Shown: positions 6,601 through 46,900 of the stretch, in pieces
Position numbering within the stretch: position 1 is the first letter of the stretch
How the letters are laid out: the number at the start of each line of letters is the position of its first letter
NCBI RefSeq assembly: GCF_037975245.1
Contig: NC_092579.1
Span: forward strand, 19,180,678 to 19,244,677
DNA: 64,000 bases
DNA from: Apostichopus japonicus
Taxonomy: Eukaryota; Echinodermata; Holothuroidea; Aspidochirotida; Stichopodidae
Reading direction: 5' to 3'
Notes under the pieces: model-generated
Database searches by the model: none
What the model saw: the letters and a program-made list of their open reading frames with translations, nothing else
Told to the model about the DNA's origin: nothing
Program-made: the position numbers and the translations under genes

Positions 6601-9440
6601 AACACAACAAAACATTGTTCATTTGTCCGACAGCAATAGAGCTGCAGCATATTTAACACCTCAACAAAAGTATGTTACAGTATGTTATACTTATTTTCAA
6701 AAGTGAATATGAACATAACAAATCAGCCAAATCTCTGTATAAAAGAACAAGAATTCGGAAAAGAAACTTACAATCTTGCCAAGTTGTTCAACTGCAAGTG
6801 GATAAGTTCTGTGATGGCCTTTGCTTCAGGTACAGATAAGGATCTCCTTTTCAAGAGTGAGCAACATATCTTAGTGATATTCTTTTTCTCAAACCATATG
6901 GTCGCAGTGACTGGGGACATTCTCAGAAGACAGGTAAGGACTCCGATGACCTTCAGATCGACATCCACAAGATCGCGATTGTCCTCCAACTCTTCACCAC
7001 GAATACAGAGTGTATCTATGGATATGACATTTAAGACTGTCTCACCCCATCGATCCAGAAGTGAATCTATTTCCCTTTCTGAGTCTTGATCTTTGCCTGT
7101 TTGCAAACGTAGTTTAGACGGTCTGCCTTCATTTCTCTCATCTAGTTTTCTTTTTAGTCCTCTCTGTGTATCATTGTAAGCTGCTGAGGAAGAACTGGCT
7201 TCACATTTTTTCACTCCTTGTTCATCGAGGTCACAAGATTTGTCCGACGACTCATCGATCTCCACCGAAAGACGATCATTTGCATGGATTGGATTTCGTT
7301 CCAAAAATGTCTTGATAACGGTCATGAGGATTACCTTCGATAGAAACTTCTCTGCTGTCTTCACGACAAACATGCTCTCGTCTTCAAGAAACTCACAAGC
7401 TTTTAGAAGCATACCTGTCAAAAAAACAAGAAAGAAAAGTAAATGATACACAGAACATTTAAAAAAAAAATTCAAAAGTAATAAAACTTTGCAAAACTGT
7501 TTCAAATGCATACACAGAGCATAATGACTGAAAATATTGGTATTTCCATCAAATATTAAAACTGATACATCAATGTTGAAAATGCAAACAAGAGAGAAAT
7601 AGAACAAAATACTGTACATATCAGCTATCAGTAAAACAAACATTTCTAGTGACGTTGGTGAATTTTCAGCACCTTTCCAAGCTAAAATATCATAGCAATG
7701 TTCCTAGTTTGCTGGGCAATAATCAACTCTCAATTCAAATGGTAACAAAACCGTTGCAAATTTTGGAAACTTTACCGTAGTTTGCAGGTGATTAATACTA
7801 ATCTTGGAACAGGTCAGGGCAATGACAAACATTTTGCAAGTGATAATCAAATCTGCTCTAAAACAATTTCCCCTTTAATAAATGTGCAGTTCCAAAAAGG
7901 TTCAACTTTGCATTACAGGGTAAATTCTTAACCGTCGTCCGAGACAATCAAAACCGTTCAGAATGAGTCTGAGGGACAACCAGACAAAAAGCCTCACATA
8001 ACTACATCTACAGATAGGAATAAAATATTGAGATGGAATTTCTAAAGCTGTGGAATATTTCTTAGACTACCCAGCAAGCACCATAATTTCTTCTCAAAGA
8101 AAAGTATGAGATCAAACCTCCTTTCTCAAGTACGGGAATCCATTTTGGCATATCTAGCAATTCAATCGCAGTCAAACTCCACAGGTACTTCACACCTGCA
8201 TCAACGTCACCCAGTAGAATGTGCATGTTTACTAGAAGGTAAGTGCCAAAATCTAGTAGGTCTTTCAAAATTTCATCGCTAGATTTCTTGCCGCAAAATT
8301 GTCTTTCATCATCATGCGTCGGTTTCTCGCTTAACTTGTTGGTCCATGACTGACGAGCTCTGGTTTCATCTTCCGGCAAGGAGGTAGACATCCAAAATGG
8401 CTTCCAATCTAAATCCTTCTTGGCCACATCCAAAAAATCGCCAGCTTTTATGAATTTATTGAAGCTCTTTGCTAAGCAGGAGAGCAGTTTAAGTGATATG
8501 CAGATACCAGATGGGTGGCAGCCTTCTTCGATAACTGAAAACCCTTGCAATATCTGCCATGTTTGAGACTTCAGGATCTGACAGAGCTTGTCTGTAGATG
8601 AGTAGAGGAAGAACATGAAACTAGATTCAAATTTCATAATACAAAGTGGCTATTATTACGACTAGTCGTAAGAATAATTTCCGACTACGCATGCGCAGTT
8701 GCTATTTTTATGACCAGTAGTACTATTTTTCCGACGTTGAGTAACAATAATTCCCGGTTAGGGTTAGAGTTAGGGTTAGGATTGAGGTTTAGGGTTATGT
8801 TTAGGGTTAGGGTTACCCCTACTACATGCGCAGTTGCTTTATTTACTTTACTGCGCTTGAATTCGCCTTTGTTGTAAGAATAGTTTATAAATAATTGTTA
8901 CGACTAGTCGTAAGAATAGCCACGGCCTTCATAATATATCTGACCAATCTAACTTTTGTACAATTAAATTAGATAATAAATGACATCATAGTATAACGAA
9001 TGCTTCAATATTTCTTTCATTATTATAAGAGAGCTTATACATAGCAAGCTGGACAAAACATTATCATTCATGGAAATTAAGAGAAGCTTCACTTTGTTCA
9101 AGTTCATTTCAGTTGCTTTTGATATTTCCAAAAACAGTGACAAAATCCTAGCATCTCACAAGAACTTTTCAATGAATCTTTTGCTCTACTAAACAGCAAT
9201 TTAGAAATCTTTAGTGTCACATCAGAACAATTACCATGTTATTTTAAACATAATAGGGATCTGCATTAAAATACCTCTATCTTTGAGAGATTTTTCAAAC
9301 CAAGACATGAGTTTCTCCACACAGGTGTCATCTCTGATTGCACAGGCCTGCTTGTCCAGCGACAGTTCAAATACTTGAGGAAGCAGCTCTAGCGATCTCT
9401 GAAAGTCTTCGTTGAAAATTTCATTCATTGCAGCGGATTT
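1..9440 (-). CDS. brat1: BRAT1 orthologue (HEAT-repeat ATM activator / Integrator partner), 11 coding exons, 3' end outside window
   Basis: Coding exons, 5' to 3' on the minus strand: 9428-9275, 8591-8118, 7414-6772, 6364-6215, 5649-5469, 4779-4626, 4008-3926, 3234-3051, 2190-2024, 1548-1383, 636-1. Every junction keeps frame and has GT-AG borders. About 997 residues are visible and the frame is still open at position 1, so the protein is longer than human BRAT1 (821 aa). Identity rests on the N-terminus (IRDDTCVEKLMSWFEK, where human BRAT1 has a near-identical DDTCLEKLLDWFK segment) and on HEAT-like helices: HWEARDSAVKF in exon 8, EDEESYVREAALNAL in exon 9, RDFDWEVKLSALEF in exon 11. In vertebrates BRAT1 binds ATM/BRCA1 and the INTS9-INTS11 module; that role here is by homology. 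The donors of exons 5 (gttggt), 6 (gtgggt) and 8 (gtacag) are weak and were chosen by phase and alignment. Confidence 0.88.
1383..1548 (-). CDS. brat1: BRAT1 coding exon 10
   Basis: Acceptor catcaatgcag, donor gtaatt (phase 1). It encodes DSGGFARRAAMSLYCTWIKK, which lines up with human [20 protein letters not shown]. Confidence 0.86.
2024..2190 (-). CDS. brat1: BRAT1 coding exon 9
   Basis: Acceptor tatatccctttag, donor gtaaga. It encodes WDKLEDEESYVREAALNAL, matching the human LLQDPESYVRASAVTAM HEAT helix, one of the clearest BRAT1 signatures in the window. Confidence 0.86.
3051..3234 (-). CDS. brat1: BRAT1 coding exon 8
   Basis: Acceptor ttaacctag, phase 0. It encodes VLNKGLQVLKTFVLLYERGD, which lines up with the human VLKKAFQATLRWLL region, then HWEARDSAVKFIGTLTENQN, which lines up with CWEVRDSALEFLTQL. 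Using the gtacag donor (phase 1) gives a human-like spacing to the next exon. An alternative gtgatt donor 11 codons later would break phase. Confidence 0.8.
3926..4008 (-). CDS. brat1: BRAT1 coding exon 7 (short)
   Basis: An 83-base exon bounded by a ttactcattag acceptor and a gtacgt donor. Of the three frames only the one fitting the exon 6 phase is open; it encodes 27 codons (PEGAKNHLHPIMHQGLELI...). Found from splice signals and frame logic. Confidence 0.75.
4626..4779 (-). CDS. brat1: BRAT1 coding exon 6
   Basis: Acceptor ctttgacag. It encodes NSWCLVEELTSEALTAIQF and then VDRLSVQTLNTLDALLKK, two helices of a HEAT repeat. The donor is gtgggt (phase 1), preferred over gtatta three bases away because only phase 1 joins exon 7 in an open frame. 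Confidence 0.78.
5469..5649 (-). CDS. brat1: BRAT1 coding exon 5
   Basis: Acceptor tttcttataag; the probable donor is gttggt after EEIIQE. It is weak but is the option that gives phase 0 to match exon 6. It encodes CSSRDVKQLAVSLTRDM and the polar stretch SDDSDVDGF. Read-through into the intron would add about 17 codons before a stop. Confidence 0.75.
6215..6364 (-). CDS. brat1: BRAT1 coding exon 4
   Basis: Acceptor cttctgaacag, donor gtaagt. It encodes 49 complete codons (DECYILIKSVDGVVRTL...MMTPLLGLCTRVH), a pair of amphipathic helices of HEAT type. Phase 2 at both ends matches its neighbours. Confidence 0.82.
6772..7414 (-). CDS. brat1: BRAT1 coding exon 3, with a charged insertion
   Basis: Acceptor ttgacag, donor gtaagt (phase 2 out). 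After a helical start (MLLKACEFLEDESMFVV) comes an acidic/serine-rich and then basic stretch, about residues 255-320 of the protein, containing GLKRKLDERNEGRPSKLR, which resembles a bipartite nuclear localisation signal. Helical HEAT-like sequence resumes before the donor. Confidence 0.85.
8118..8591 (-). CDS. brat1: BRAT1 coding exon 2
   Basis: Acceptor ctactcatctacag, phase 1 in; donor gtttga, phase 1 out. It encodes an alpha-helical HEAT-like segment, leucine-rich at both ends (KLCQILKSQTWQIL, YLWSLTAIELLDM), with a polar stretch between that looks like a loop insertion relative to human BRAT1. Confidence 0.85.
8642..8927. mobile_element. MITE-like inverted-repeat element with internal TTAGGG repeats
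   Basis: Both ends carry GTGGCTATT followed by the palindrome TTACGACTAGTCGTAA, in inverted orientation, with homology extending through an AATAATTT-like stretch. The element is flanked by a 9 bp direct repeat, ttcataata (8633-8641 and 8928-8936), a probable target-site duplication. The outermost 4 bases on each side do not pair (CAAA versus GGCC). There is no ORF. The centre (about 8757-8816) is a degenerate run of TTAGGG units, and the subterminal motif atgcgcagttgct occurs in both halves. A 9 bp duplication would suit a Mutator-like origin, which is inference. Confidence 0.7.
8757..8816 (+). repeat. Interstitial telomere-like TTAGGG array
   Basis: About nine TTAGGG-type units, several with one-base changes (gttaga, ttagga, tttaggg). 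TTAGGG is the usual telomere unit of deuterostomes, but here it sits mid-intron inside a transposable element, so it does not mark a chromosome end. Confidence 0.85.
9275..9440 (-). CDS. brat1: BRAT1 coding exon 1 (start codon at 9428)
   Basis: The exon follows a polypyrimidine-AG acceptor (ctctttgtctcttcag), so 12 bases of 5' UTR precede the ATG and at least one noncoding exon must lie upstream, to the right. It encodes 51 codons plus one base, including the BRAT1 signature DDTCVEKLMSWFEK, and ends at a gtattt donor in phase 1. An in-frame ATG further upstream (MNHVV) lies in the presumed intron and is not used. Confidence 0.85.
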
Positions 9441-12454: not shown

Positions 12455-12499
12455 TTCAAGAAGTAATTTGTATTTTCTTTTCGAGGACACTAGGACCTA

Positions 12500-15400
12500 A
12501 TGAATCCAATTAACACTTTGGACTCGAACACTTCCAATGATATTTCTACCACTTTGGGAAATCCTACTCTTCTGAACCATATTTTTTCTGAGTGTGATTT
12601 AATCTCAAATGGAGATGATGATCAGGTTGATAATTATTCATCTAATTTTGATTCCTCTTTATATTCTGATGTAAGTGATTTACATAATCTACACAATTTT
12701 TCACATAGCACCTTTTCTATTATTCACCTTAATGCCCGTAGCTTAATGCGTAATTATGATACTATTCGCGATTTCTTGGCATCTTCATCATTTAAATTTA
12801 CAGTTATAGCTATTACGGAGACCTGGTTGCATTCCGATACTAATCTTGATTTAATTCAAATCCCAGATTATACTTTTACGCATAGGGACAGGGATACTAA
12901 ACGGGGTGGTGGTGTTGGTTTTTATGTCCATAATTCAGTATCTTTTACTGTTAGTAATGATTTGATGTCCAACCCTTTATTATTTGAATCTTTATTTATT
13001 GATGTAAAATTTGACAACAAATCTCTTTCTATAGGAGTTATTTATAAGCCCCCTGACATTCCAATATCCAATTTTAATGATGAACTGTCCAGTCTAATGA
13101 TTAATTTAAGTGTTGTCAGTAAGACTTGCTATATCTGTGGTGACTTTAATATTGACTTGTTAAAAAGTGATCATGATTCTAATGTATCCAATTTCTTAGA
13201 TCTAATGTATTCCCATTCTTACTTTCCACTTATTTCAAAACCAACTAGAATTACTCCACAATCAGCCTCACTCATTGACAACATCTTTTGTAATGATACT
13301 TTTGTTAACTTAAGCTCGGGGATTCTATTATCAGACATAAGTGACCACTTGCCTGTTTATTGTTGTAGGGATTTTAAGGCGCACTCATTATCATGCTCCA
13401 ATAACTTTTTTTACCATAAGAGGACCAGTAAAGATTCTTTACGTAATATCAATTTAGAACTTTCTTCTTTTGATTGGAACCTATTATACAATCTCCGAGA
13501 TGTTGATACTGCATATAACTTTTTTGTCGATAATATTAACAATATAATTTCTAAGCACTGTGTAGTTAAGCAATTTAAAAGAAAATCCAATACTATTCGC
13601 TCACCTTGGATAACATCAAGTATTTTAACTTCAATTTCAAAAAAGAATAAATTATATAAAAAGTACCTTCTTAATCCTTCCAGTACCAATAAATGTAAAT
13701 ATACTCTTTATAAAAATAAACTGACAAAAATTATCAGATTAGCCAAGAAGATGCATTATGAAAACTGTTTCAAAGACAATAAAAATAATTTAAAGAAAAC
13801 ATGGTATACGATTAATAAAATTCTTGGTCGTACTTCAATCAATACTCCAATTGATAAAATTAAAGATAATGATTTGTTAATTACAAATAAATTTGACATG
13901 GCCGAGAAATTTAATGACTTTTTTGCTAATATAGGTAACAACCTTGCAAGTTCTATTCCCACTTGTCACTCAAAATTTACAGATTTTCTTACTGATAGTA
14001 CCCCATCATCTCTATTTCTCTCACCAACCAACTCCTCTGAAATTATCAATTTAATAATGCAATTGAAAAAAGGCTCTTGCGGTCTTGATAATATTTCTGT
14101 TCAGTTTCTCCAAGAAAATCGTTTTATTATAGCTGCCCCTCTTACATATATTTTTAATTTATCAATATCTACAGGTGTTGTTCCAACTCGTACTAAAGAA
14201 GCTAAAGTTACTCCAATTTTCAAAAGTGGTGATAAGCTATCTATTAACAATTACAGGCCCATCTCAGTTCTTTCATCTTTATCTAAACTCTTAGAACGTA
14301 TAATATATAACCGTACTGTACATTTTTTAGACAAGAACAACATTATTACTGATAGACAATTTGGATTTCGTAAGGGGCGTTCTACAGATATGGCAGCTTT
14401 GGATGTTTCTCAATATATCATTAACGGCTTTAACAATAAGGAATATTCTTTGGGTGTATTTTTAGATTTTTCTAAAGCCTTTGATACTGTCAATCATGGA
14501 ATTCTCTTCAACAAATTGTATCGTTATGGTATAAGAGGGGTTGCATTTAACTGGTTTGTTAATTATCTATCCGATAGACGCCAATGTGTTCATATTGATA
14601 ATCATTATTCTAATTTCAGTAAAATTACATGTGGAGTACCACAAGGGTCAATTTTAGGTCCACTGCTTTTCTCCTTGTATATAAATGATATTATAAATTG
14701 TTCAAACACCTTGTATTTTACACTTTTCGCAGATGACACCAGTATACTATATAAACACAAAGATATAAATCATGCTGCATCTACTATAAATTTTGAATTA
14801 GCTAAAGTCTCTACTTGGTGTCAAGTAAATAAATTATCTTTGAATATTAACAAAACCCACTTTATGATTTTTCACCCAAACCACAAAAAAATCAAGAACA
14901 TAGATATATGTATTGGCAACTCACAGTTAAAGCGTGTTGAGGTTATAAAATTCCTAGGTTTATTTATTGATCCTGCTCTAAAGTGGTCTTCCCACATCTC
15001 CAAGATTAAAACTACCATCTCAAAAACTGTTGGAGTCCTTTATAAAATCAAAGACTTTGTTCCAATGTATATTCTCAAGAACTTGTATAATACTCTCATA
15101 CTACCTCATCTTAATTATTGTAATATTGTTTGGGGTAATGCATATTCTACCTACCTAAAGCAATTGCTTTTATTACAAAAGAAGGCTGTCCGTGTTATTA
15201 CACAGTCTGATTTCTTAGCACATACCCCACCACTATTCAGCTCACTGAACTTACTAGATATTTTTGATTTACATAGATACCACTGTGCAGTTTTTATTTT
15301 TAAGTCTATTAATAATAAATTACCAGTCAATTTTAATAATTACTTTCATTTCAATTATAATATACATAACTACCACACCAGATCCTCTGGAAATTTATTT

Positions 15401-15559
15401 TCATTGCCCATAAATACCGATGTCTTTAAACGTTCCATCGTCTGTTATGGTGTTAATTTTTGGAATAGCCTAAGTCATACATTAAGAAATATTAAGTACC
15501 TTAATTCATTTTCATTCAAGTTGAAAAATCATCTTTTATCCAAGTATCGACATCTTTAG
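12500..15559 (+). CDS. Retrotransposon ORF2: apurinic-type endonuclease plus reverse transcriptase (1019 aa)
   Basis: No stop or frameshift over 1019 codons. Endonuclease motifs: IIHLNARSL (about residue 73), ITETWL (about 105), GGGVGFYV, CGDFNID (about 213) and SDHLPV (about 282). Reverse transcriptase motifs: NYRPISVLSSLSKLLE (about 587), FGFRKGRST, GVFLDFSKAFDTVNH (about 652), GVPQGSILGPLLF (about 711), the catalytic FADDTS (about 742), NINKTHFMIF, and KFLGLFID. A C-terminal region of LPHLNYCNIVWG type follows, as in CR1/L2 elements. The protein nicks target DNA and primes cDNA from the 3' end of its RNA. Its integrity suggests a recent insertion. Confidence 0.95.
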   Translation: MNPINTLDSNTSNDISTTLGNPTLLNHIFSECDLISNGDDDQVDNYSSNFDSSLYSDVSDLHNLHNFSHSTFSIIHLNARSLMRNYDTIRDFLASSSFKFTVIAITETWLHSDTNLDLIQIPDYTFTHRDRDTKRGGGVGFYVHNSVSFTVSNDLMSNPLLFESLFIDVKFDNKSLSIGVIYKPPDIPISNFNDELSSLMINLSVVSKTCYICGDFNIDLLKSDHDSNVSNFLDLMYSHSYFPLISKPTRITPQSASLIDNIFCNDTFVNLSSGILLSDISDHLPVYCCRDFKAHSLSCSNNFFYHKRTSKDSLRNINLELSSFDWNLLYNLRDVDTAYNFFVDNINNIISKHCVVKQFKRKSNTIRSPWITSSILTSISKKNKLYKKYLLNPSSTNKCKYTLYKNKLTKIIRLAKKMHYENCFKDNKNNLKKTWYTINKILGRTSINTPIDKIKDNDLLITNKFDMAEKFNDFFANIGNNLASSIPTCHSKFTDFLTDSTPSSLFLSPTNSSEIINLIMQLKKGSCGLDNISVQFLQENRFIIAAPLTYIFNLSISTGVVPTRTKEAKVTPIFKSGDKLSINNYRPISVLSSLSKLLERIIYNRTVHFLDKNNIITDRQFGFRKGRSTDMAALDVSQYIINGFNNKEYSLGVFLDFSKAFDTVNHGILFNKLYRYGIRGVAFNWFVNYLSDRRQCVHIDNHYSNFSKITCGVPQGSILGPLLFSLYINDIINCSNTLYFTLFADDTSILYKHKDINHAASTINFELAKVSTWCQVNKLSLNINKTHFMIFHPNHKKIKNIDICIGNSQLKRVEVIKFLGLFIDPALKWSSHISKIKTTISKTVGVLYKIKDFVPMYILKNLYNTLILPHLNYCNIVWGNAYSTYLKQLLLLQKKAVRVITQSDFLAHTPPLFSSLNLLDIFDLHRYHCAVFIFKSINNKLPVNFNNYFHFNYNIHNYHTRSSGNLFSLPINTDVFKRSIVCYGVNFWNSLSHTLRNIKYLNSFSFKLKNHLLSKYRHL

Positions 15560-16841: not shown

Positions 16842-17605
16842 CTAATAAGGTGGAGCATTGTGTACATTTGCACATGAACCAAGGTACCTAACACCTTCTG
16901 GATAACAGTACCAGTAATCGTTGGTATCCAATCGCCATTTATACAGCGTATTATTCATTTCTTGAAAGACGCTGGCATATTCCTTATTTCGAGCCAAGTT
17001 GGTCAGTTCTAGAGGATCGTTAACCTGATCATATAACTCAAATTCATCCCTGTAGTAGTACTGCTCCAGAGTCTTGAACCACTTGGTAGGTTGCTTAGAC
17101 AAAGTCCTGTTCAAGATATCCTTGAATGTTGGGTTGTCATAGAGATCGGTCGCTAGGGGATACGGCCCTAGATAGTTGAGGTTATGAAGCAGACGATAAC
17201 GTCTGTTTCGCAAGACCCGCATGGGATAGTACATGGATATTTCGTGGAAGTTGTGACTGGAAAACACATGATCAAATCCAGAAACAGGTTCTTCATGGGT
17301 TACCGGGAGAAGGGATTCCCCGGTCAGCGTAACGGTTTGGTAGTTCAGTTCATACTTTGGGAAAGGAACATTGAACCAGTCCAAGACTGTTGGAAGAATA
17401 TCTGTGGTGCTGACGAAAGCTTCACTGACCTGACCCCACCGAGATGTGTCTTCTGGTGAAGAGATTAAGAAAGGTTCCCCCATTCCTGGCTCGTATAGGT
17501 TGGTCTTAGCATTAGGGAACGGAATACCATTATCAGAGGTATGGATGATAAGTGTGTTGTCAAGGTAACCATGGCTTGCCAACTCATCTAAGAGCATACC
17601 AACTC
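16842..17605 (-). CDS. sgsh: SGSH paralogue 1 exon 5 (terminal)
   Basis: 764 bases to the stop. Holds [16 protein letters not shown] (Asp-Asn metal ligands; Lys at the usual Arg), [26 protein letters not shown], the C-terminal sheet [19 protein letters not shown] and the LNRT sequon. Confidence 0.94.
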
Positions 17606-20600
17606 CTGTAAAATTTTGAAAATAATAACAAATTGTTAAACAATTTAATTTATGTAGATCAAAAAAAAGAAATTAGAAAATGAAAACATAGTTTTCCACA
17701 AAAATCATAACCTAAGACAAATATTAAACAACACTCTATACTGCTTATTGAAAGGATTCCACAAGAACAGATTCTGGTGATTATACAAGTAAATGGGGGA
17801 CCCCTCAATGTGGGGAGCCTGAGGCCGTAGCCACCATGGCACCGCACTAGATCCAGCACTGGACTGGATATAAAGTGAGTGCACATATTAGTAAATTTGA
17901 CATCTAGAGTTAGCATCTGTATTAGATTTTGTGATTTTGATCATGACTTTAGACTGAACCTTACTCAGGCATCTTACATTGACAGAAGCTTTTTGTTACT
18001 CAAGCAGATAATTAAGCACCCTAGTCAGCATTGCATACAATAACAGAGGTCCCTGGATAGGTGTGAGTACATATATAATACCACACACATTATTAAAGAT
18101 AATTGCCACATTAACCATCCAACCTGTGATTACAGAGGGAAGTAGCCATCAGCGTGTGACTGGAAGAAACGAAAGATCATTTCACACCTGAGTTTTTGTA
18201 TAATGAACTCATTTTCACCTGGGGAAAGGCGGGTCCTAGCTATCTAGACACTGGTAATGGGAAAGTACACAAAATTTACTTCCATACTATGATACCTGTA
18301 TATAATTGGAAGATTCTTAGACTATAGTCAGGCCAATAGCCAGGCAGTCTAGTGTTGAATGAAGGTTGGGGGAGGGGGGGGGGGCAAGGGGAAGGAGGAA
18401 GAATCAACTATGTACAAAGAGGCATAAGCTATTAAAGGTCGCAATATTAGTACCATGTTATGTGAGAAGTTTCTGGTTCACGTGATGGTGACACAAAAAG
18501 GGGTGGGAAAGGGACAATATATTCACTCTCCTGCATAGGGGCTTTACCCCCCCCCCCTGCCCCAGCCTGGCTGTTGTCCTACATTACCTGCATCTAAACG
18601 ACTCATGGCAGTGTACTGGTTAGCAATGTCTCCACGACTGACTGGTGTGTCTGGTAAAAAGGGAGGAACGATGACATCATCAGGGTCATAATATACAGGT
18701 TTCCAATCCGGTATGACGCCATACTTTGGTTGACCGTTACCAAATTTCTCACAGAAGTCTCCAAATTCGCTCTCTGGACATCGATGACAATCAAGAAATC
18801 CAATGTATAGTAAAAATGGTCTGTAAAAAAGATTAATATCTGACATCACATACAGCAACGGCTATGCAAACTGGTAAAGTTGCTTCACAGGTGTAAAGAT
18901 GTACAGTATAGTAGGTTTTGTACTTAGGAACAGTATTTTATAAGAGACAAAATTAGGAGCCTTTAAAACTGCTACACAAATTTGAACACAAATTAATCCC
19001 TGAAAATTACACAAAATTTGCTTCTATCCCATTAGAATATGTTATTATCTAACAGTAATTGCAAACCATGATTACTGTAGATAAATTGTATGGAAGACAA
19101 TGAGAACATTTCCAAAGTATAAACAACATACAGTATTGACTAGATCCAGACTTCAACCAAGAATAGTGTTATGTAATATTTAAGGCCTATGATTTGGTGA
19201 CAATTTTTATTCATCTGTTTAACTTTGTTAGCGTTACCAGTTAGAAGCCAACTTAATTTTTCATGCATAAAAATTGTTAAATTCAATCTTTCATACATCT
19301 GATGAAATATTGCTTTGCACAATCTTGGTAAATAAATGTTGCTTTTTATGTTTGATGCATGTATGTTAAGGCTTCAGCAACTTTACGATATGGGTGAGTA
19401 AAAGATTTAATGAGGTCATGTACAAACTTTCTTTACAAATAAAAACAGGGAAATTTCAATGCTTTTTCAAATGACTCACTGTGATGAGTTCATAGCCAGG
19501 AACTGTTTGACATAACTTTTCATCAATGTTATATTTCTGCCAATCTGTATCCATGGATGATTATTCTCTGTCTGCTCAAAGTCAAACTTGAAGACATCCG
19601 CAGAGCCGACATGCTTCTTTCCAATTATACCTGATAAATCAAGATATAGCACAATCACAGTGTTTATGTATGTATGTATGTATGTATTTTAGATCCTCCT
19701 GCAAGCAGGAACTCGCGAAGAAGCCATCATTGGCTTATTAAAACCGCAAGCTGACCGAAGTCAGTCTCTTAGATTCATATTTAAAGTCCATGATTATGAA
19801 TTGTCAACAACTCTGTAACTGGGCGACATACATTAATCTTGGAGTGACTCTAACTCCTTAAAAACTTAAAAATGGTTTTACAGGAATATTATGTTGGCAG
19901 ACAATGTGTGATTTTCATGGAAGAGCAAAATATTCCACAGTCAGGCTCAAGATATGGTTGATTGAATGTAACCTATTTGAACTGATAAACCCCAAAACAT
20001 TCCTTTATACTGTGGTAAACCATACCACAGAGACTTTCTGATCAAATTCAATTTAGCAAAAAACAGCCAGAAAACGTTAAGTGGCTCCGATGCCCAAACA
20101 TAATCATAGTGTGGTAAGCCATACATGTTAATATTTATGAACTTGAGCAGACCAAAATGAAGATGGACTATCTATTGACTATAAATAGGGCAACATAAAA
20201 GGAAGGTATCAGGAATCATGTTGACAAAGTCTAATTAGTGACATACTGTAATATAAACACAGATACATTCGTGAATATCATTGAAGTCAAATTTTATGAT
20301 CTTATAAGCGTGTATCTATATACTTACATTGTTTTATCCAAGTACATGCATAAAGCTAATAAGACATACTATATCAGGGATATCTGATGAAGAATTTTAT
20401 GTTCACTGTTTAATATTCATGATATGCACACAAAAAATTGTATGAATGTACTGTGACAAGCCTAATATGCCAAGGATGAAAACCATGGAATATTTGGTTC
20501 TTTGTCTTGTGTTTAAAAGCCATTTCTTGCAATGTGATGAATATTAATGACATAAAGTTGGAGACATCATAAAAATATGCTCATTAATGTACCACCATCG

Positions 20601-21732
20601 TCATACCAATATGCACCAACTTTTAGATTAAGCCTGCTCATATTTTAATATTCATGGAATAGGATTCAAATACAATGTACTCATCACTGGGCATGTACCT
20701 ACATAATATATTATTTAGATGAAATTCTGTTCTAAAGAAAAGTTAAAAGTTGAAGTTAGATCTTTCTAATTTCCACTAAGCTTAACATATTCCCATTTAT
20801 CTCCTTGCCTGACCCTGCACTTCTTGCTTGGAGACACATCCACATGCATCTACAGGTTAAGCCCCACTACTTTTGTGGCAAAGCTTACCAGTTTTTATCC
20901 CATGGGACTTCAGTATCACAGGCAATGACTTTGCACCATCAAAAGCATTAAAGTTTTGTTGTCCTCCATGGAGACCATAAAGTCCATTCTGGTGACTTGG
21001 TAAACCTGTCAGGATTGCAGAACGACTAGGCGAACAACTGCTTACTGAAGTGTAGCCATGTGTAAAAGTTACACTACGCTTTGCTAATCTCTCCAGATTT
21101 GGTGTTTTACAAACTGTATTGTTGTAGACAGAACTTTCAAAACCAACATCGTCAGCTAAAGATGATAAAAGAGGAGACAATGAAGGAATGCGTGGTGTAT
21201 TGAATGTATATACTTATAAAATAAAATAATTGTAGGACAATTAAGACACATAAAGAGACGTGCCAATTACCTCCCCCATGAACCGTCTCCCTCTCCGGGA
21301 GGTGTCTCAAGCAAAAGAAACTGAGACTAATTTGTGCCCTAAACCTGTAGATTTACGAAAACTGAATGCAAGTAAGCAAGTCGTAGCGCTTCAAAGACTC
21401 TATAAAAAAAGTTATCCACAAAATGTATAAATCTGCTCAGGGGACCTAGCCTACATTGCCAAAGTGACATGAAACAAAAAACAAGTCTCACTGAAACGCT
21501 TTGAAAGCAGATATGAACATTTCAATAACGTACGTATCATAGCATATCGTTATGCTAGGCCGACTAGTCTATAAGTTAGGCCTAACTTAGCTAGGCTATC
21601 TAGGAAAAATCGCCTACCTAAAATAACCAGCACATTTTTCATCGAACCTCTGACATGAGTAATGGCTGCAAGAAATGCAACATAGAAAACAATCAATCGA
21701 GTTATCTGAGTCATCATTGTTTTATGATTCAA
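16842..21732 (-). CDS. sgsh: N-sulfoglucosamine sulfohydrolase (sulfamidase) paralogue 1, complete, five exons
   Basis: Coding exons: 21732-21618, 21155-20889, 19630-19480, 18820-18588, 17605-16842, giving 509 aa (human SGSH 502). It removes the N-linked sulfate from glucosamine at heparan sulfate ends in the lysosome. Visible active-site elements: ADDVG metal ligands, the formylglycine motif CSPSR in [22 protein letters not shown], and SDNGIPFP. The position equivalent to human Arg282 is Lys (NAKTNLY). An N-terminal hydrophobic stretch (LIVFYVAFLAAI) is a signal peptide. Glycosylation sequons NNT, NIT and NRT are kept. All junctions are GT-AG and in phase. The start is uncertain between the ATG at 21732 and an MM pair five codons later. 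It lies head to head with paralogue 2. Confidence 0.93.
18588..18820 (-). CDS. sgsh: SGSH paralogue 1 exon 4
   Basis: 233 bases. Contains [16 protein letters not shown], where human has PFFLYVAFHDPHRC; it keeps the Asp and the active-site His. Also [19 protein letters not shown] and the [13 protein letters not shown] helix. Confidence 0.92.
19480..19630 (-). CDS. sgsh: SGSH paralogue 1 exon 3
   Basis: 151 bases. Begins with the conserved GIIGKKHVG (Lys and His ligands of the substrate sulfate) and carries the GRNIT sequon. Donor gtgagt. Confidence 0.92.
19664..19858 (-). repeat. tRNA-derived SINE family 1, copy A (5' truncated)
   Basis: Minus orientation, with a (CATA)n tail (tatgtatgtatg on plus), then tttagatcctcctgcaagca, the conserved body, and a break at the B box (gactctaactc). 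The A box is missing. In SGSH paralogue 1 intron 2. Confidence 0.85.
20889..21155 (-). CDS. sgsh: SGSH paralogue 1 exon 2 (catalytic formylglycine motif)
   Basis: 267 bases, phase 1 to 1. Contains DDVGFESSVYNN and the CSPSR sulfatase signature, whose Cys is converted to formylglycine, then [15 protein letters not shown]. Confidence 0.92.
21618..21732 (-). CDS. sgsh: SGSH paralogue 1 exon 1 (signal peptide)
   Basis: Encodes the signal peptide and the first beta strand KNVLVIL; donor gtaggc, phase 1. Apart from KNVLVI it is hardly alignable with exon 1 of paralogue 2, as expected of signal peptides. Confidence 0.85.
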
Positions 21733-22332
21733 AAGTTAACTGAGTGGCCTTTGAGGCAACTTAATGTTACGCCTTTTACTGTTAGTGCTGCTAATGTGAT
21801 GGTACAATTCAACATGCATATATCAAGTATACGTCAATGAAAAACAACGTTAGGGTATTTCCCATATAGCGGAGTTTATTGTTCTACGGTGGCCAAGGAG
21901 TTATTTTCTCACATATGATTTTAAACAAATGTTTTATTAGACTGGCCAACCTGTCAAAAACTGTAAATTTGGTTTACTTTGCATTTATTAATAATAAATT
22001 AGTAGTTAATACGCTGAATTAGTATATAAGATATCATTTTGCTCCTAAGTTAAGTTAACCGTAAATGAAAATAATATTCCAAGCAATTTTAATTACGTCG
22101 TGTCTAGGCATCCGTCTGTTTACAAGTGACCAACTCACATGATCGATTTTGATTTCAATACAGTACCAAGTTTTTGTGCGTTGTATCCCGATTCCGTACA
22201 CACTACAAGTCAGCCTAAATATTCTTCTTGGCGGTTTCCCAGACCGTTACCCAATTGTAATTTCTTCTTATCAAACCCGAAAACCTCAGTAGTGGCTAAC
22301 CATTAGTGTTTCCTAACTGGTTACAGTTAGAG
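21733..22332. promoter_or_regulatory. Shared upstream region of the divergent SGSH pair
   Basis: Only about 600 bp separate the two start codons, so both promoters and 5' UTRs must lie here (inference). There is no obvious TATA box. An inverted CCAAT-like acccaattgt lies near 22250, and tcacatga at 22135-22142 matches the E-box variant bound by MITF/TFE factors, which control lysosomal genes in vertebrates. A functional link is untested. Confidence 0.55.
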
Positions 22333-22438
22333 ATGATGGCCACCACGGAACGAGTTGCCCTGCTTGTATTGCAATTGTTTGTGATTAGTAGCCTGATAAA
22401 TGGCCAAAATACGCAGAAGAATGTATTGGTTATTATAG
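22333..22438 (+). CDS. sgsh: SGSH paralogue 2 exon 1 (signal peptide)
   Basis: Signal peptide, then KNVLVII; donor gtaatg, phase 1. A tandem ATG-ATG begins the frame. Confidence 0.88.
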
Positions 22439-25400
22439 GTAATGTTATAATTCAATATTGGAGATACAGGCTAGGCCCGGTCTATGATTATTTCATCCCC
22501 TATACACACCCACTTCTAGTCTGTCCTGTACTCAGGATGCGCAACTGCAGTGTAGGAGTAGCTCAAGGTACACGTACGTCTAGGCTAGGCCTATAAAATA
22601 CAAATTGCTTACAAAGCTATTAGCCACGAACAATTATAAGGGACAACACCATGCAAAAATCGTAACACTATATCCAGTGCCTCAGTTTTATGCTGGTCAG
22701 GAAACAATGAAATGACCACTTCATGCATGGATGCATGGATGAAGCCTGCATATGCATGGCTTTAACTCCAATTAACCCATTGGTTGTATCCCTGTGTATA
22801 GTCTGTGAAAATTTGTCTTTCTTTTTCTCAAATGATTAATAAGTTGTTTATGAACACTACGTGTTACCTATAAATTTTGAAATTTATGCCTGTTTTTATT
22901 TTATGCCAAATTTCTCTGTTATCAATACAGTTTTTCACATATCCAGAACTATACTTTGTAAATTCATGTGCTTAAATGACTTTTTTGCGAGTATGGTACA
23001 CTCGAAGGAAATAAAAAATAAGAATAATCTAATGACTCTATTCAACCTTATGAATGAAGTTAAAAATTTCCAAATGTTTCCAAATCTGTTTCTAATTATG
23101 TCCACTAAGTTTGTGTGCCATTGCTCCTGAGCAAGACATGTAGTACTAGAGATTTGATTCTGGTGGAAACTTCAAGAGTGTCATTACAATTCACTTTTTC
23201 AAAAGTCTGCTTTCCTCTTTCCCCCCATTTCTCTTCTTGTAGGTGATGATGTTGGGTTTGAAACTTCAATCTACAATAATACGGTTTGTAGAACACCAAA
23301 TCTTGAAAGGTTAGCTCAAAGGAGTGTAACTTTAAAGCATGGCTACACCTCGGTCAGTAGCTGCTCACCGAGTCGTTCGGCCATCATGTCTGGTTTGCCG
23401 AGCCATCAGAATGGCATTTATGGTCTCAATGGAGGGGTACATCACTTTAATGCATTCAGTGGAGTACAGTCCTTGCCAGTGATTCTCAAGCCTCACGGAT
23501 TCAAAACGGGTAGGTATTACACAGACATTTGTCTGATAATAACATGTATAGTCGTCCTAATAGATCAACCATGATTTGGTAACCTAAACTTGAACATATA
23601 TTTCTGTAACTGTGCATAAAAGTCTGTGTGAATTTTTTTTCAAAATTTGAATAAAATCAAAATTGTTGGAGTTTAATTAAGTGCAATATGTTATATCTGG
23701 GCTACTGATAGATCTGTGAATCTAACTGTATGAACTTCTTATTAAACAAAAACATAATCTAATAAAATAATGTAGTCAATGGACTTGTTTTCTTTCTTGT
23801 GAAGTTGAGACATTGGGGACATTTCAATGTTCATATTTTTGCCTCAGCTGACATTATATCTAATTCTTGTTAAGCACCAATAATTTATAAGCTTGAACAT
23901 CGTGGAATAGGAATAAAATTATTATGTTCTTGTTTGAGTAGGTTTTTACTACATTTTCAAGGGGCACAACCACCGCATGTGTGTGTTTGTGTAGATGACA
24001 CCTGCTTGTAAACACTATATGTAAAACTTGTAAACACTGCTTGTAAACACACTATGAGTCAAATAGTACATCCTGATTGAACTTCATACTTGGTATTTAG
24101 AGCCTGCTCGGTGAGTGGAAGAACATAATCGAAATTGGTAGCAGGCAAAGGTCATTTGAGGTCCTCAGTCAAAGTTTTAAAACGAAGTCAAAGTTTTAAA
24201 GCCCTGTAAACATAAAACTCAACTTGTACATCTTGGAAGAAGTTTTTTAGTCAATTGGTATGTTGATTCCCCCATGGTTAGTATAGGAACTTTGTATTGT
24301 AAGCTGTGGAGGTGAAAGCTCATTTGAGGGCCACATAGCTCAAAGACTGAAAACCAAATTCAAAGACTGAATCTTGGTTGAACTTCATAGATCCTGCTTG
24401 GTGAGTACAAGAACCCTATTGAAATTGGCAAAGATCAATGTCATTATAGAGGTAAACAGAGGCAACAATCTGAAAACATGAAAATTAAAAGTGCAGCATG
24501 GTTTCAGTTCATACTTGGTGTGTAGATTTCCCCTGGTTATCGAAATTCAGTGCTTACTTGATAGATAAATCTGCATTTATACAAGAACCTTGCTGATCAC
24601 TTCAAGTCAGTAATGGACAACACTTTAAATGCTTTAAAACTTTAAAATTAGTTTTACTGTTGCATGTTCTTATTCAAAATATGGAAAGGAATCAATAGGC
24701 CAACTGGCTTTCTGGTTACACTGGCAAGATATTATGCATTCCAGTGGAGAGGTCTAAGGGTAGTGGTGGCCTCTCCTTTTGAGCAAATTGTGGTGAAGTG
24801 GAGGATGCTTAAGATGCAAAAAGGATACTACATTTTGCATTTTTCTGATTTTTTTCGTTCGTGCATGCGTGCGTGCATTCATGCATTCGTTGATTTTAAT
24901 GATTTCAATTATTTATCTGATTTATTTATTGTACTATTGTACACTAGGACTGTTGGAAATTGTCTGTCTGCCAGTGAGGTAAGGAGAGGAAAGGGTAGGG
25001 TAGGGCTTGTTTTTATTCTGGGGGATCAACCCCCCTCCCCCCCCCCCTATCCAGAAGTATATATTTGTGTCCCTGATATCTTCAGTATGTGCAACAGAAG
25101 GTACTGTGGGATTAAGTCAAATGAGATAAAAATAAATATGATGTGTATGAAAACCTGTAACAGATCTTTTAATCTCATGATAGGTATCATCGGCAAGAAA
25201 CATGTTGGTCCAGCAGATGTTTACAAGTATGACTATGAAAGAACAGAATTTAACCATCCTATGCTTCAAGTAGCCAGGAACATCACAAACATGAAGTTAC
25301 TTGTGAGAGAATTCTTTGCTACAAATGCTTCCATGTAAGTCTTATCTTTGTATTTACAATTAAAAGCTCACCTAATATCTTCAGTGGCGGAGCGTCCATA

Positions 25401-28074
25401 CAGTCAGGGGGGCGGATGCCCCCCCTGACGGACTCAAATGGACTGCTGGTGCCCTTTTCAGCTTTTTACCACTTTTTACTTATTCGCGATTATTGACTTT
25501 TTTATTGCGCTCTCAAATACCAATTGATATTTGTCACATTTTGTTGGTGTAATTTTCTGACAAAATGGCGATGACACCTATTTATTGTTCGTTTATCTGC
25601 AAATTAGCAAGGCCTGGAAAGGGTCATTTCCAGTGATCTAGGGAGTATATTTACTCAAAAAATTTCTGTATGCTCAGCGCCAACCTGTGGTGGCGCTCAG
25701 CTTAGATAGTGTTGATAGCGCCCCTACAGACCATTCTCGCCCCTCCTGACCAATACCCCTAGCTCCGCCACTGAATATCTTGCTTGGCATTTGATCAACA
25801 ATAGACTGCCTATGTGGATGAGTCTCTTCATAGCTAGAGTCATCTGTGAGATTCTTTATGATTTTGATGTAAATTGTTACTGTTACATACGTGGTGGGAT
25901 GTGTGTCTGTGTGTTTGTATGTGTGTTGGTGTATGTTGCCTCAGTTGTAGACTTAACATCTCAAGAAAGGAAACTTGGATAAATCTCAGCCTATTGTTTT
26001 TGCTGGAGGTCAGAGATCAGTTTAAAGTCAGTAGAGGTCAGAATGAGAATTATTTAATAAACATATTTGTTTCAAGGAAAATACTTTTTATGTATGGCAT
26101 ATTGGGTTTCCCGTATTAAGTAGATGAAGTGCATTGTTTTCCTGTGGGAGGTAAAAGATTATTTGAGGTTAACAGAAGTAAAAATGTGATTTTTTAATTT
26201 TTTTATCATGATATCAGAAGAAATTAATGTGAATCCATATCATATATTATGTATATTCCCCATATTAAGTGGATGAAGCCTATTGTTTTAGTGGAGGTTG
26301 ATAGTCATTTGAGGATTTTAGAGGTGAAAAATGGGAACCTTGTAAACACAGGATCTCAAGAAAGTGAACCTTGTAAAGATTTCATACTTACAGTACTATG
26401 TGGTTTTCTAATACACTCGCGCACTGCACAATTCCCTGAATGGTCCCTGCTGTCCAGGTATAACTAACAAATTTGGTAATAAAATTGCTAGTTGTAATGG
26501 ATGAAATCGGGATATACTGTTCTAGTGTAAAAAAATTGGTATGACCCTATTTCTTCTTCTGGTGGGATACCAACATGGCAAAGCCCAACACAAAAACAAT
26601 CATTGGTTTTTCACAGGCCTTTCCTTCTGTACATCGGTTTCAACGATTGCCACCGCTGTCCAGAGAATAAATTTGGCGACTTCTGCGAGAAGTTTGGTAA
26701 CGGTCAACCAGAATATGGCGTCATTCCAGATTGGAAACCACAATACTATGACCCAGCTGAAGTCATCGTTCCCCCTTTCCTCCCTGACACACCTGCTACC
26801 CGTGGTGACATCGCGAACCAATACACTGTCATGAGCCGTTTGGATGCAGGTAAGTGCAAGGCTGGTCATTCACCAATCATTGTGTACAGAAACATATGCA
26901 GTTGTTTTATGACATGTTTACAGTATCAAGAACCGAGCTTTTTCAATAAAAAAACGGACAGTCCCTAATTATCATTATATCATCAATGGAGAACCCTCAT
27001 AACCCTTATAATTTAAGTAAACAAATTTGCTGTGGCTCTACTGCTGAAAAAAAGGTTATAAAATTAAGCCCCATCAGAGCAATGATATTTTGGGGCATAA
27101 CTACTTTGTTTATATAGTCTTGTGGTCAGAGCTTGTGACAGCTACCTCAGAGTGGCTGTGAAGGGGCCGGCACAGTTCGGGTCCTTGATGGAGACTGTTT
27201 GATATCTTTTCTGATCGGTTGCTAATCAAATCTAAAATAGTAATGTTCAGCATTAAATGCATTGTGTTAGCTAATTACCATAAATGAATAATCATTCCTT
27301 CTTTACTTAGGTATTGGCATGCTATTAGATGAATTAGAGAGTCATGGTTACCTTGACAACACTCTCATCATGTACACTGCTGATAATGGCATACCATTCC
27401 CCAATGCCAAGACCAACTTGTATGAGTCCGGAATGGGGGAGCCCTACTTGGTGTCATCACCCGTCGATAGGTCTCGCTGGGGTCAGGTCAGCGATGCTTT
27501 TGCCAGTACCACAGATATTCTTCCAACCGTGCTCGACTGGCTGGTAGTACCATTTCCTACCTACAAATTGCAAGGAGTGACAGTTACCCTAACAGGAAAA
27601 TCTCTGCTGCCCGTAACCCATGCTGAGCCAGCCACTGGATTTGATCAAGTGTTCTCCAGTCACAACTTCCACGAGGTTTACATGTACTATCCTATGAGGG
27701 TGATAAGAAACAAGCAGTATCGTCTACTCCACAATCTTAACTACTATGCTCCGTATCCCATAGCGACCGATCTTTATGACAACCCAACATTCAAGGATAT
27801 CTTGAACAGGACCTTGTCTAAGGAACCTACAAAGTGGTTCAAGACTCTGGAGCAGTACTACTACAGGGATGAATTTGAGTTATATGATCAGGTTAACGAT
27901 CCTCTAGAACTGACCAACTTGGCTTACGATGAGAAATTTGCCAGCGTCTTTCAAGAAATGCAGAAGACGCTGTATAAATGGCGTCTGGATACCAACGATT
28001 ACTGGAAGTGTTACCCTGAGGGTGTGAGATATTTGGGTCATTGTGCCGATTTGCATAACAGTCCCCCATATTAG
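22333..28074 (+). CDS. sgsh: N-sulfoglucosamine sulfohydrolase (sulfamidase) paralogue 2, complete, five exons
   Basis: Coding exons: 22333-22438, 23243-23509, 25184-25334, 26617-26849, 27311-28074, giving 506 aa. Exons 2-5 have exactly the same lengths as in paralogue 1. Catalytic elements: GDDVGFET (Gly replaces the usual Ala before the Asp pair), CSPSR formylglycine motif, [20 protein letters not shown] with NAKTNLY (Lys for human Arg282). The signal peptide is [17 protein letters not shown]. Sequons NNT, NIT and NRT are kept; the human NDT site near the DNG motif is DNT here and so lost in both paralogues. The start is the first of two adjacent ATGs; a 5' extension from 22306 is possible but would displace the signal peptide. 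Predicted lysosomal. Confidence 0.94.
23243..23509 (+). CDS. sgsh: SGSH paralogue 2 exon 2 (catalytic formylglycine motif)
   Basis: Acceptor ctcttcttgtag, donor gtaggt. Contains [23 protein letters not shown] and [18 protein letters not shown]. Confidence 0.94.
24060..24560 (+). repeat. AGGTCA-rich interspersed repeat, copy cluster 1
   Basis: Several degenerate units built on 'gaacttcatacttggt.....gtgagt.gaagaac..attgaaattgg...aaaggtcatttgaggt...agtcaaag', including cttgtaaacact three times at 23990-24055. Same family as the repeats near 26.0 and 35.2 kb. Confidence 0.7.
25184..25334 (+). CDS. sgsh: SGSH paralogue 2 exon 3
   Basis: Acceptor ctcatgatag, donor gtaagt. Begins with [19 protein letters not shown] and includes ARNIT. 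Confidence 0.94.
25382..25773. mobile_element. hAT-like nonautonomous DNA transposon (MITE), 392 bp
   Basis: Begins CAGTGGCGGAGC and ends GCTCCGCCACTG, a perfect 12 bp terminal inverted repeat of hAT style. It is flanked by a perfect 8 bp duplication, aatatctt (25774-25781, and 25374-25381), the length hAT transposases make. No ORF. A C/G-rich palindrome (ggggggcggatgcccccc) lies just inside the left end. Confidence 0.92.
25985..26370 (+). repeat. AGGTCA-rich interspersed repeat, copy cluster 2
   Basis: Units with gctggaggtcagagatcagttt, agtagaggtcagaatgag, ttccc.tattaagt.gatgaag and ggaggt..aagattatttgaggttaacagaagt, then a further unit ending in cttgtaaacacaggatctcaag. Confidence 0.65.
26617..26849 (+). 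CDS. sgsh: SGSH paralogue 2 exon 4
   Basis: Acceptor gtttttcacag, donor gtaagt. Contains [28 protein letters not shown] and [17 protein letters not shown]. Confidence 0.94.
27311..28074 (+). CDS. sgsh: SGSH paralogue 2 exon 5 (terminal)
   Basis: Acceptor tctttacttag. Runs to a TAG stop, with [42 protein letters not shown] and [17 protein letters not shown]. Confidence 0.95.
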
Positions 28075-43900: not shown

Positions 43901-46900
43901 CTGTATGCATGAAGTACTTTTGACAGATATAATTACATGCGGTTATGGTTGATATTCTAAACTTTTAATACTATACTCGATTTCAGTCATTTTTCACTGC
44001 AGATGTACAGTATGCCCAAGTTTAATTGCTCTTCAGCACTTACATACAGGTACAATGTAAACATCTAGCGTTAACTGCATTGAAGTTTCATAAAAAAATC
44101 GAAGGAGTTTGGTTCATAAAATCAGTATGTGTTCTGTACAGTAGTTTGTTTTAGTACCATTGTGTTATTTTTGTAAATGAGTATGGTAAACTTTCCACAT
44201 ATAGTATAGCGGAATGCAGGTATTTGCAATAGAATGTTGAGTACTACAAACTACGTTTGGAAAAATTGTCCAAAAATGAAGAACAAACCATTGGTTGTAC
44301 TGTATATAGTTGTATGTAGTTATATAGTATATAGGTATACATAGGTGTACAGTACTTTGTATATAGTTGTATATATAGTTGTATTGTATGTAGTTTTATA
44401 TAGTTGTATATAGTTGTTAAGTTTGTAGTTGTATATATAGTTGTATATAGTTATATATAGTTGTATATAGCTGTTTGAATTTGTATATAGTCATATATAG
44501 TTGTATATATAGTTATATATAGTTGTACTGTATGCATAGCAGTTGTATATTGTCGTATGTAGTTGTATATAGTTATATAGTAGGACAGACGAAAAGAGAA
44601 GTTGTAGGATATACATACTATATCAACTAGTTAACAACTATTAAAACCCAAAAGTTTGACATATAGTGCACAGAGCATGTTATTGTATTACAATCAGGGG
44701 TATCACTACGGGGTGGGGTTGGGCGACAGGGGTTGGCAGTGGTTAGGGATGCAGCAGTTTATTATAATAGTGCAAAGTTATTGCTCATTTAGTATAGTAT
44801 CATATTGCATTGGTAATTTCATCAACTGAGAAATAAAGTCAGTCCACTATTATGGAGGTGTGCAGAAGAAAATCTAGTTCACACTCAGTTTGGATTTTAT
44901 AACCTTTTTGTGTACAGCACTTCCAAGCCACACTTCGAAACACTTATAGAAGCAGTATGTATGTTGTATGAATACGTTGTAAGACAAACCACCCAAGATA
45001 AAGCCTGGATCACAAACAAAAAAAACATCTTTTTCCACTCTCAACCCCAGTCGCCTTACACGTAGATTGCAAACACATGATCGTGGTGGTGCGTTTTTAT
45101 TACAATGGATACAATGTTTATTAGTGTCACTGCAATATACCTTGAAGCATGATATGGAAGAACTGTGTACGAGAAAGCAATTTGGAAATACTTGTCCAAT
45201 CTGGCGTCTGTTAAATCTTGATTGTGAATATGCATGTGGGAAATACACAGATTTTTGTACCATTGTCAATACACACAGTCCTCTGTGTTATGGAAAGTCG
45301 TCCAATCATTGCTTTACAAATATATACACTGTTTTTGGCTTCGCTACGAGTGTTACATTACAGAGTCACTATGGGAATGAATTAAAAAGGCTTAAAAATG
45401 TTGCTGGTGGTAAATGAAACTTGTTTGTGACTGCTTCATTGTTCCGTAATGCTGCAGTACTGTTCTATAACAGATTTGCACAGCGTCGTAAATCAAATAG
45501 TGGCAGCAAATTATGTAGTTCTAAAATCGTTATCCTCCACTGACTCTCTTTTGCAATTTGATTCCCTGCACTGTAGTCATACAGCATTTGGTTTGTGGAT
45601 ACATCCGCTCATGCATATGCAAATTATGATATTTCAGTATGGATAAGTGAAAAATGGCAGTTTTTATGTTCTGACTTTGATGTGGATCTTTTTGATAAAT
45701 TACTGTAAATGCAAATAAAATGAACTTGAGTCTGTACATTTTTGACTTTTGAACCTGTGATTTTTTATACACGTGTTAGATTACAATAGTCGTAATGATT
45801 GTTTTACCATCGATCTCTCTAAAGAAGGAATTATATCGCAAGTGTTTTTGAAGTTTTTATTTTGTTGTTTGTTATATACGTACTCGTTGTCTAGTCATTT
45901 ATACATATAGACATATCCTTGATGAAAGGTCTTTCCGTGATTGAACACTTTCCCAGGAGACGAAGATATCAGATCGTTTACTAATGTCTCTCTCTCAAGT
46001 TTTACATTGTGACGTTATTATCTTTTCAAAGAGAAGGATGGATGATGTGTCTACGTTTGACTCCATATTCCCCCAGTGTCAAACAGCCGCTGCTATCGGT
46101 TACAGACGATTGTGTATTTTACTCTGTACAGTTCAAGTGCCAGAACAACATGGCACCTCCATACCTGCAAGATCTGATCCGTCTTTATCAGCCAACAAGA
46201 GCCCTACGTTCTGCTGGTCATAGTCGTCTGGAGGTTCCGATCACCAAGACAAACAGCTATAGGAACAGAGCTTTTTGCGTGGCTGGGCCACGCCTCTGGA
46301 ATGAGCTGCCAGCTGAACTAAAAACTGTTCCTACTCTCACGACCTTTAAATCAAAGCTGAAAACTTTCCTTTTTAGACAGCATTACTGCAATTTTTAAAC
46401 TGTGTATTTAAATTTCTTTCATGTGCAATACTCAAACGTGCATGTTTTTTTTATTTTTCATACTCATTTATATTGTATTTAATTCTGCATTTTTTACTAC
46501 ATATTTTGTGTCATATTTTTATATTTCTTATTTGCTGTTACATAGCGTTTTAGAGCACTTTTGTGGATTTTACGCTTTACAAAATAAATTATTATTATTA
46601 TTATAAAAGTCTAAATTTGAACTGTTGATTTTCATGTACTTGACATTACTTTGTCAATATCTCTCGTGTGATGATGCATTCCCTGATTCAACAACTTGTG
46701 ATTATTTAAGGAAGGGTAGTTGACCCTGAATACCCAAAGAAATGATGTCCCTCTGTTCTGCCAAACCCCTCCCTCCCCTCTCCCCCGCCCCCATCCCACC
46801 TCTCCAGTTCTCCATTGTTTCCTTGATATTACTGATTTTGATTTCATGAAGTTGCAATCATTCCTCTCTTACCTGTCTCCAAAACATGCCCACTCTGATC

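Follow-up and report, generated by a model that had tools for sequence, protein, structure and literature searches.

Two divergent SGSH-like genes and their shared upstream region

We analyzed a 64,000-nucleotide (nt) stretch of the genome of the echinoderm Apostichopus japonicus (NCBI RefSeq assembly GCF_037975245.1, contig NC_092579.1, forward-strand positions 19,180,678 to 19,244,677), referred to below as the window, and all positions are those of the window. It contains two intact genes resembling the lysosomal sulfamidase gene SGSH, here called gene A and gene B, each with five coding exons, which diverge from a gap of 615 base pairs (bp):

16842-21717, minus strand: SGSH-like gene A, 504 amino acids, GT-AG introns and an open frame
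21717-21618, 21155-20889, 19630-19480, 18820-18588 and 17605-16842, minus strand: exons 1 to 5 of gene A
22333-28074, plus strand: SGSH-like gene B, 506 amino acids, GT-AG introns and no internal stops
22333-22438, 23243-23509, 25184-25334, 26617-26849 and 27311-28074, plus strand: exons 1 to 5 of gene B
21718-22332, unstranded: shared upstream region and candidate bidirectional promoter, 615 bp, CpG-rich

Exons 2 to 5 measure 267, 151, 233 and 764 bases in both genes, with matching intron phases, and candidate polyadenylation signals lie 219 bases beyond the stop codon in A and 197 bases beyond it in B. An initial reading made from the letters alone (the sequence-only reading) had described two complete head-to-head genes of five exons, with these shared exon lengths and phases and a spacing of about 600 bp, and the gene models bear out this description, the distance being 615 bp from ATG to ATG. 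By alignment projection, the four intron positions of A and B fall on c.88, c.355, c.506 and c.745 of human SGSH, which we take to be intron sites of the human gene; if they are, the exon layout is ancestral and the identical lengths say little for a recent duplication. Human SGSH presumably also has a head-to-head neighbor, SLC26A11. The human gene is described as having eight exons (PMC6858298).

The assignment to SGSH is secure at the level of homology. Exon 5 of A and of B each matches the Pfam domains Sulfatase (PF00884) and SGSH_C (PF16347) above the curated cut-offs, and protein B matches human SGSH (the only other animal SGSH in our comparison; structure 4mhx) with a phmmer E-value of 1.5e-172 and 578 bits, against 103 bits for the next match among solved structures. 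The copies are 52-53% identical to the human enzyme over nearly its full length (249 of 473 residues for A). In tblastn, each protein recovers exons 2 to 5 of the other copy, while exon 1 gives no cross-match; taken with the match of B to human SGSH, this excludes chance resemblance.

The gap between the genes has a CpG observed/expected ratio of 0.91, compared with 0.40 for the window and above 99% of sampled 615-bp windows, as would be expected of an unmethylated promoter. PMC8895820 defines bidirectional pairs as divergent genes whose 5' ends lie no more than 1 kb apart; the 615-bp spacing of A and B is measured between start codons rather than transcript starts. Co-regulation of the two genes from this region would be compatible with these features. 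One TCACATGA lies within the gap at 22135-22142; this TFEB/M-box-like motif was dropped as promoter evidence, as the window holds nine matches where 7.1 are expected.

Divergence of the copies and a synonymous block in exon 5

The proteins share 389 of 504 aligned residues. The sequence-only reading held that they differ mainly at the signal peptide, and this does not stand: exons 2 to 5 account for 92 of the 115 differences and exon 1 for only 23. To separate age from constraint we counted informative codons, meaning degenerate codons for an amino acid that is the same in both copies. Outside a short tract of exon 5 described below, 164 of 309 such codons differ synonymously, and the synonymous divergence (dS) is saturated (2.3 by maximum likelihood, 4.7 by NG86) while the nonsynonymous divergence (dN) is 0.12-0.14. 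Because saturated dS is here paired with low dN, the duplication must be old and the copies under strong purifying selection. The proposal that an inverted duplication was retained under selection thus gains support, from these rates and from the open frames and the preservation of nine of ten active-site residues. Over the same part of the proteins, A and B are identical at 313 of 398 residues and match the human enzyme at 213 and 209 of 396. Relative to human, the copies carry 22 and 24 unique changes, which indicates equal rates.

A recent inverted duplication, in which the exon lengths are equal simply for want of time, would account for the shared lengths of exons 2 to 5 and their phases, yet it is refuted by the synonymous differences outside the tract and the 92 replacements in exons 2 to 5, and we give it next to no credence. 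It is further contradicted at the DNA level, where, apart from a dispersed repeat, only exons 2, 4 and 5 of the two arms still match; exon 3 is recovered only as protein, and the introns, untranslated regions and shared upstream region of A and B do not align.

Set against this background of divergence, the last exon contains a block, unremarked in the sequence-only reading, that is almost unchanged between the copies, interrupted by two small islands of copy-specific sequence:

16935-17141, minus strand: candidate conversion tract, gene A side, 207 nt of exon 5 located by the synonymous scan
27775-27981, plus strand: candidate conversion tract, gene B side, codons 408-476, including a 93-nt stretch of perfect identity
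27925-27939, plus strand, in B and 16977-16991 on the A side: island 1, codons 458-462, YDEKF in B and RNKEY in A, 7 of 15 nt different
27961-27966, plus strand, in B and 16950-16955 on the A side: island 2, codons 470-471, QK in B and NN in A, 3 of 6 nt different

Within the strict tract 194 of 207 nt are identical, compared with 152 of 207 in exon 5 immediately upstream and 68 of 93 downstream, and dS across codons 408-476 is only 0.03-0.07. Synonymous differences affect 3 of the 65 informative codons between codons 400 and 475 of B, far below the proportion found elsewhere. A likelihood scan gives the block a log-likelihood ratio of 31.3, where 1000 permutations reached at most 11.8, and identical informative codons run uninterrupted for as many as 40, where 5000 permutations gave at most 23. 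With degeneracy held fixed, 32.4 synonymous differences are expected and 3 observed (minimum of 11 in 5000 permutations). There is no second tract elsewhere in the gene, the longest remaining run being 9 against a 95% permutation limit of 10.

The block therefore combines synonymous identity beyond permutation with divergent sequence on both flanks, the pattern by which conversion tracts are recognized, and we infer that it is best explained by gene conversion between the two inverted genes. The GC content at third positions, 0.54 (A) and 0.58 (B) in the tract and 0.38 (A) and 0.47 (B) outside it, lies nearer the outside value of B and gives a weak hint that B may have been the donor. The effect on apparent age is considerable: calculated for the entire mature protein, dS is 1.2-1.5, and it rises to 2.3-4.7 when the tract is removed. 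These values support a duplication that is old rather than recent, with the overall similarity of A and B probably raised by the later conversion tract, and full-length trees of such paralogs would make the duplication look younger owing to the conversion block.

The two islands hold 10 of the 13 differences in the strict tract, all of them amino-acid changes, and this clustering exceeds what chance would give (p = 0.00015 when the 13 differences are shuffled 20,000 times). Island 2 creates an NNT glycosylation sequon in A alone. With the islands included, dN in the strict tract is 0.065-0.073; without them it falls to 0.007, with dS then 0.05-0.06. Either the conversion was patchy, or selection favored variants in which the copy-specific residues had been kept or regained.

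We consider the following history probable. Long ago an SGSH-like gene of sulfatase subfamily S1_8 was duplicated in inverted orientation, and A and B now flank a short CpG-rich upstream region that is probably a bidirectional promoter. Both copies stayed functional under purifying selection, and outside the tract the proteins drifted apart to about 79% identity. Ectopic gene conversion between the arms would have followed much later, overwriting about 200 bp in the last exon of one gene with the sequence of the other and leaving the two islands with their copy-specific residues. The gene models, the old divergence, the purifying selection, the block and the islands are observed; conversion as the cause of the block and joint use of the promoter are inferred. 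Several points weigh against this account. The clustering of the islands is not what random mutation after one clean conversion event would produce, and would require patchy conversion or selection. In the strict tract dN is as high as dS or higher. The grouping of A with B in a four-sequence tree is weak, with bootstrap values of 73% for the full alignment and 71% without the tract, and the outgroup, a bacterial S1_8A enzyme, is very distant. Finally, the permutations come from one genome and, in excluding chance, would still accommodate local constraint or a low local mutation rate.

That last point is the basis of an explanation without any conversion, in which the 207-bp stretch has been under purifying selection at synonymous sites, as an RNA or regulatory element, since the duplication. 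Data from within one genome could by themselves give the same pattern, and the stretch encodes part of the SGSH_C domain. The islands are hard to reconcile with this explanation, since a continuous element acting at the nucleotide level would hardly permit changes at 7 of 15 and 3 of 6 nt. Other features of the tract also count against it: the predicted RNA fold is not clearly better than that of shuffled sequences (z = -0.91 and -0.84), the first 464 nt of the 764-nt last exon precede the tract and place it far from a splice site, and identity to human is no higher within it than in the remainder (36-38 of 77 residues over codons 400-476, against 209-213 of 396 outside). Two-fold degenerate codons for the same amino acid are identical in 34 of 34 cases within the tract and in 79 of 122 outside it, which also speaks against constraint. 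We accordingly judge this explanation improbable, if still distinctly better than a recent duplication.

Active site and substrate class

The catalytic residues of A and B were placed by alignment to human SGSH, with the active-site list taken from PMC4014121. Three positions were located in both genes, the first being that of the catalytic formylglycine (FGly):

23362-23364, plus strand (B Cys76), and 21034-21036, minus strand (A Cys74): cysteine at the FGly position of the CSPSR motif (human FGly70), by alignment to human SGSH
27409-27411, plus strand (B Lys286), and 17505-17507, minus strand (A Lys284): lysine at the position of human Arg282, by ungapped alignment with human DNGIPFPSGRTNLY
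27763-27765, plus strand (B Ala404), and 17151-17153, minus strand (A Ala402): alanine at the position of human Asp399, by alignment to human SGSH

Both copies carry the C-x-P-S-R formylglycine motif in the form CSPSR, and human Asp31, Asp32, Asp273, Asn274, Arg74, Lys123, His125 and His181 are matched at all eight positions in both, so that nine of the ten active-site residues are kept and the sole exception is the replacement of Arg282 by lysine, which the sequence-only reading did not remark on. Also retained are His368 and Asp401, which feature in the docking model, and the four disulfide cysteines, together with three of the five human glycosylation sequons (41, 151 and 413). The structural and docking account in PMC4014121 proposes Arg282 as the feature that sets N-sulfatases apart from O-sulfatases and describes a salt bridge between it and Asp399; as presented there, the closest vertebrate and invertebrate sequences carrying the SGSH annotation retain every one of the ten residues, and lysine occupies the Arg282 position in all six other enzymes tabulated. 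Lysine is also found there in the bacterial S1_8A structure 9bb9. By the comparison in PMC4014121, Lys282 would be unusual among SGSHs, though this lysine may prove common in the present lineage.

As it is common to both copies, Lys282 most likely predates the duplication. For Ala399, conversion could have spread the residue, since its codon falls where the upstream boundary of the tract is ambiguous (codons 400-407). Both proteins have in addition gained cysteines at human Ile45 and Pro180 (C49 and C184 in A, C51 and C186 in B), giving each seven cysteines in total: the FGly cysteine, the four of the disulfides and the two extra ones. Pro180 in the human structure forms a cis peptide adjoining the catalytic His181, according to PMC4014121, and an extra disulfide near the active site of A and B is plausible. 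When the sequence-only reading called these genes complete lysosomal sulfamidases, it was right as to family, since the domains and the best match, human SGSH, make them SGSH-like; the functional part of that label is unproven, because Arg282 is lysine and Asp399 is alanine in both copies.

We think it most likely, judging from the protein sequences, that A and B still desulfate heparan-type glycans in the lysosome, while their shared Arg282Lys/Asp399Ala background would leave N-sulfatase specificity undecided. The alternative is that they are no longer sulfamidases and represent an S1_8 branch with the O-sulfatase lysine, acting on O-sulfate esters of other glycans, with a canonical Arg282 SGSH encoded elsewhere in the genome. 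This concerns function and can hold alongside conversion. It would make sense of the lysine and alanine seen in both copies, of the lysine shared with 9bb9 and the six other enzymes of the PMC4014121 table, and of the new cysteines beside His181 and at Ile45; it fits less well with 52-53% identity to human SGSH over nearly the full length and with the retention of the other nine active-site residues, His368 and Asp401, and exchanging arginine for lysine is a conservative step. On balance we regard it as unlikely. About as doubtful is a combined scenario, in which an animal S1_8 branch that had lost the proposed N-sulfatase arginine and its aspartate partner, and had gained the cysteine pair near the active site, was then duplicated into two isoforms, with their C-terminal domain homogenized by conversion and the islands protected by selection.

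The consequences differ with the answer. Should A and B cleave N-sulfate with Lys282 in place, the structural basis proposed for N- versus O-sulfatase specificity in the Sanfilippo A enzyme would have to be revised; should they be unable to, the enzyme has been put to another use in this lineage. An Arg282Lys mutant of human SGSH is announced as planned in PMC4014121, and the same change occurs naturally in two genes here. Should the combined scenario hold, A and B would be natural enzymes for testing what makes an N-sulfatase.

Searches for further relatives yielded little. A scan of genome_contigs with B alone gave no relative among 18 pattern matches; with a three-sequence alignment, one of 199 pattern matches was a relative, a distant bacterial sulfatase (L001, 29%) and not an orthologue, and its distance makes it unusable for the tree. 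None of 49 pattern matches in viral_contigs was a relative. These scans are pattern-based, and bacterial S1_8 enzymes do exist, so their silence is no proof of absence. The bacterial genome carrying L001 contains 12 matches to PF16347, with no function assigned. Among the literature titles listed we found no paired echinoderm SGSH and no gene conversion between SGSH copies, a title-level survey that does not show absence from print.

The surrounding window and comparison with known systems

Several mobile or repetitive elements lie in or near the two genes. An element of the long interspersed nuclear element (LINE) type at 12494-15556 (plus strand), 1.3 kb past the 3' end of gene A, has an uninterrupted frame of 1021 codons with endonuclease and reverse-transcriptase domains, and the intactness of this frame points to recent activity. 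A dispersed repeat of about 190 bp has one copy in intron 2 of gene A (19665-19856) and recurs at 48736-48923, 49811-49987 and 52942-53131, with 83-91% identity, and resembles a short interspersed nuclear element. Intron 3 of gene B contains a short element at 25382-25773 with inverted CAGTGGCGGAGC ends and an 8-bp duplication, AATATCTT, at 25374-25381 and 25774-25781, as read by eye; it looks like a non-autonomous hAT-type transposon.

Farther from the pair, an open reading frame (ORF) at 2-712 on the minus strand has a sub-threshold match to HEAT repeats (E = 0.014), and the gene it belongs to, which we presume to be BRAT1, may include other minus-strand ORFs that extend to about 9.5 kb. Neither this ORF nor that at 49193-49537 has relatives in the PDB at E-values of 0.01 and 0.1, respectively. 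An interstitial telomere-like array at 8756-8815 is made up of some ten imperfect GGTTAG units (80% matches), which are the telomeric TTAGGG in another rotation, and degenerate tandem arrays with TGTATATAGT and TACTG-type units occupy 44301-44579, 48444-48727 and 48979-49165. The window yielded no tRNA, and no Rfam family reached its gathering score there.

The closest known counterpart of A and B is human SGSH itself (S1_8; 4mhx and 4miv), which they resemble in the CSPSR motif, the metal ligands, His181, the four disulfide cysteines and their overall identity; they differ from it in being two head-to-head copies, in the replacements Arg282Lys, Asp399Ala, Ile45Cys and Pro180Cys, and in having five coding exons where the human gene has eight exons. 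For the exon 5 block, the parallel is ectopic conversion in palindrome arms and between Drosophila paralogs, where, as here, inverted arms on one chromosome share a homogenized block. The arms of A and B are otherwise synonymously saturated, however, with only about 207 bp apparently homogenized and islands left within it. As to layout, the human GALNS-TRAPPC2L pair likewise joins a lysosomal sulfatase gene to a divergent neighbor across an upstream region of less than 1 kb, as described in PMC8895820; there the partner of GALNS is unrelated to it, whereas each member of the A/B pair faces a paralog of the same enzyme, with which it putatively shares a promoter.

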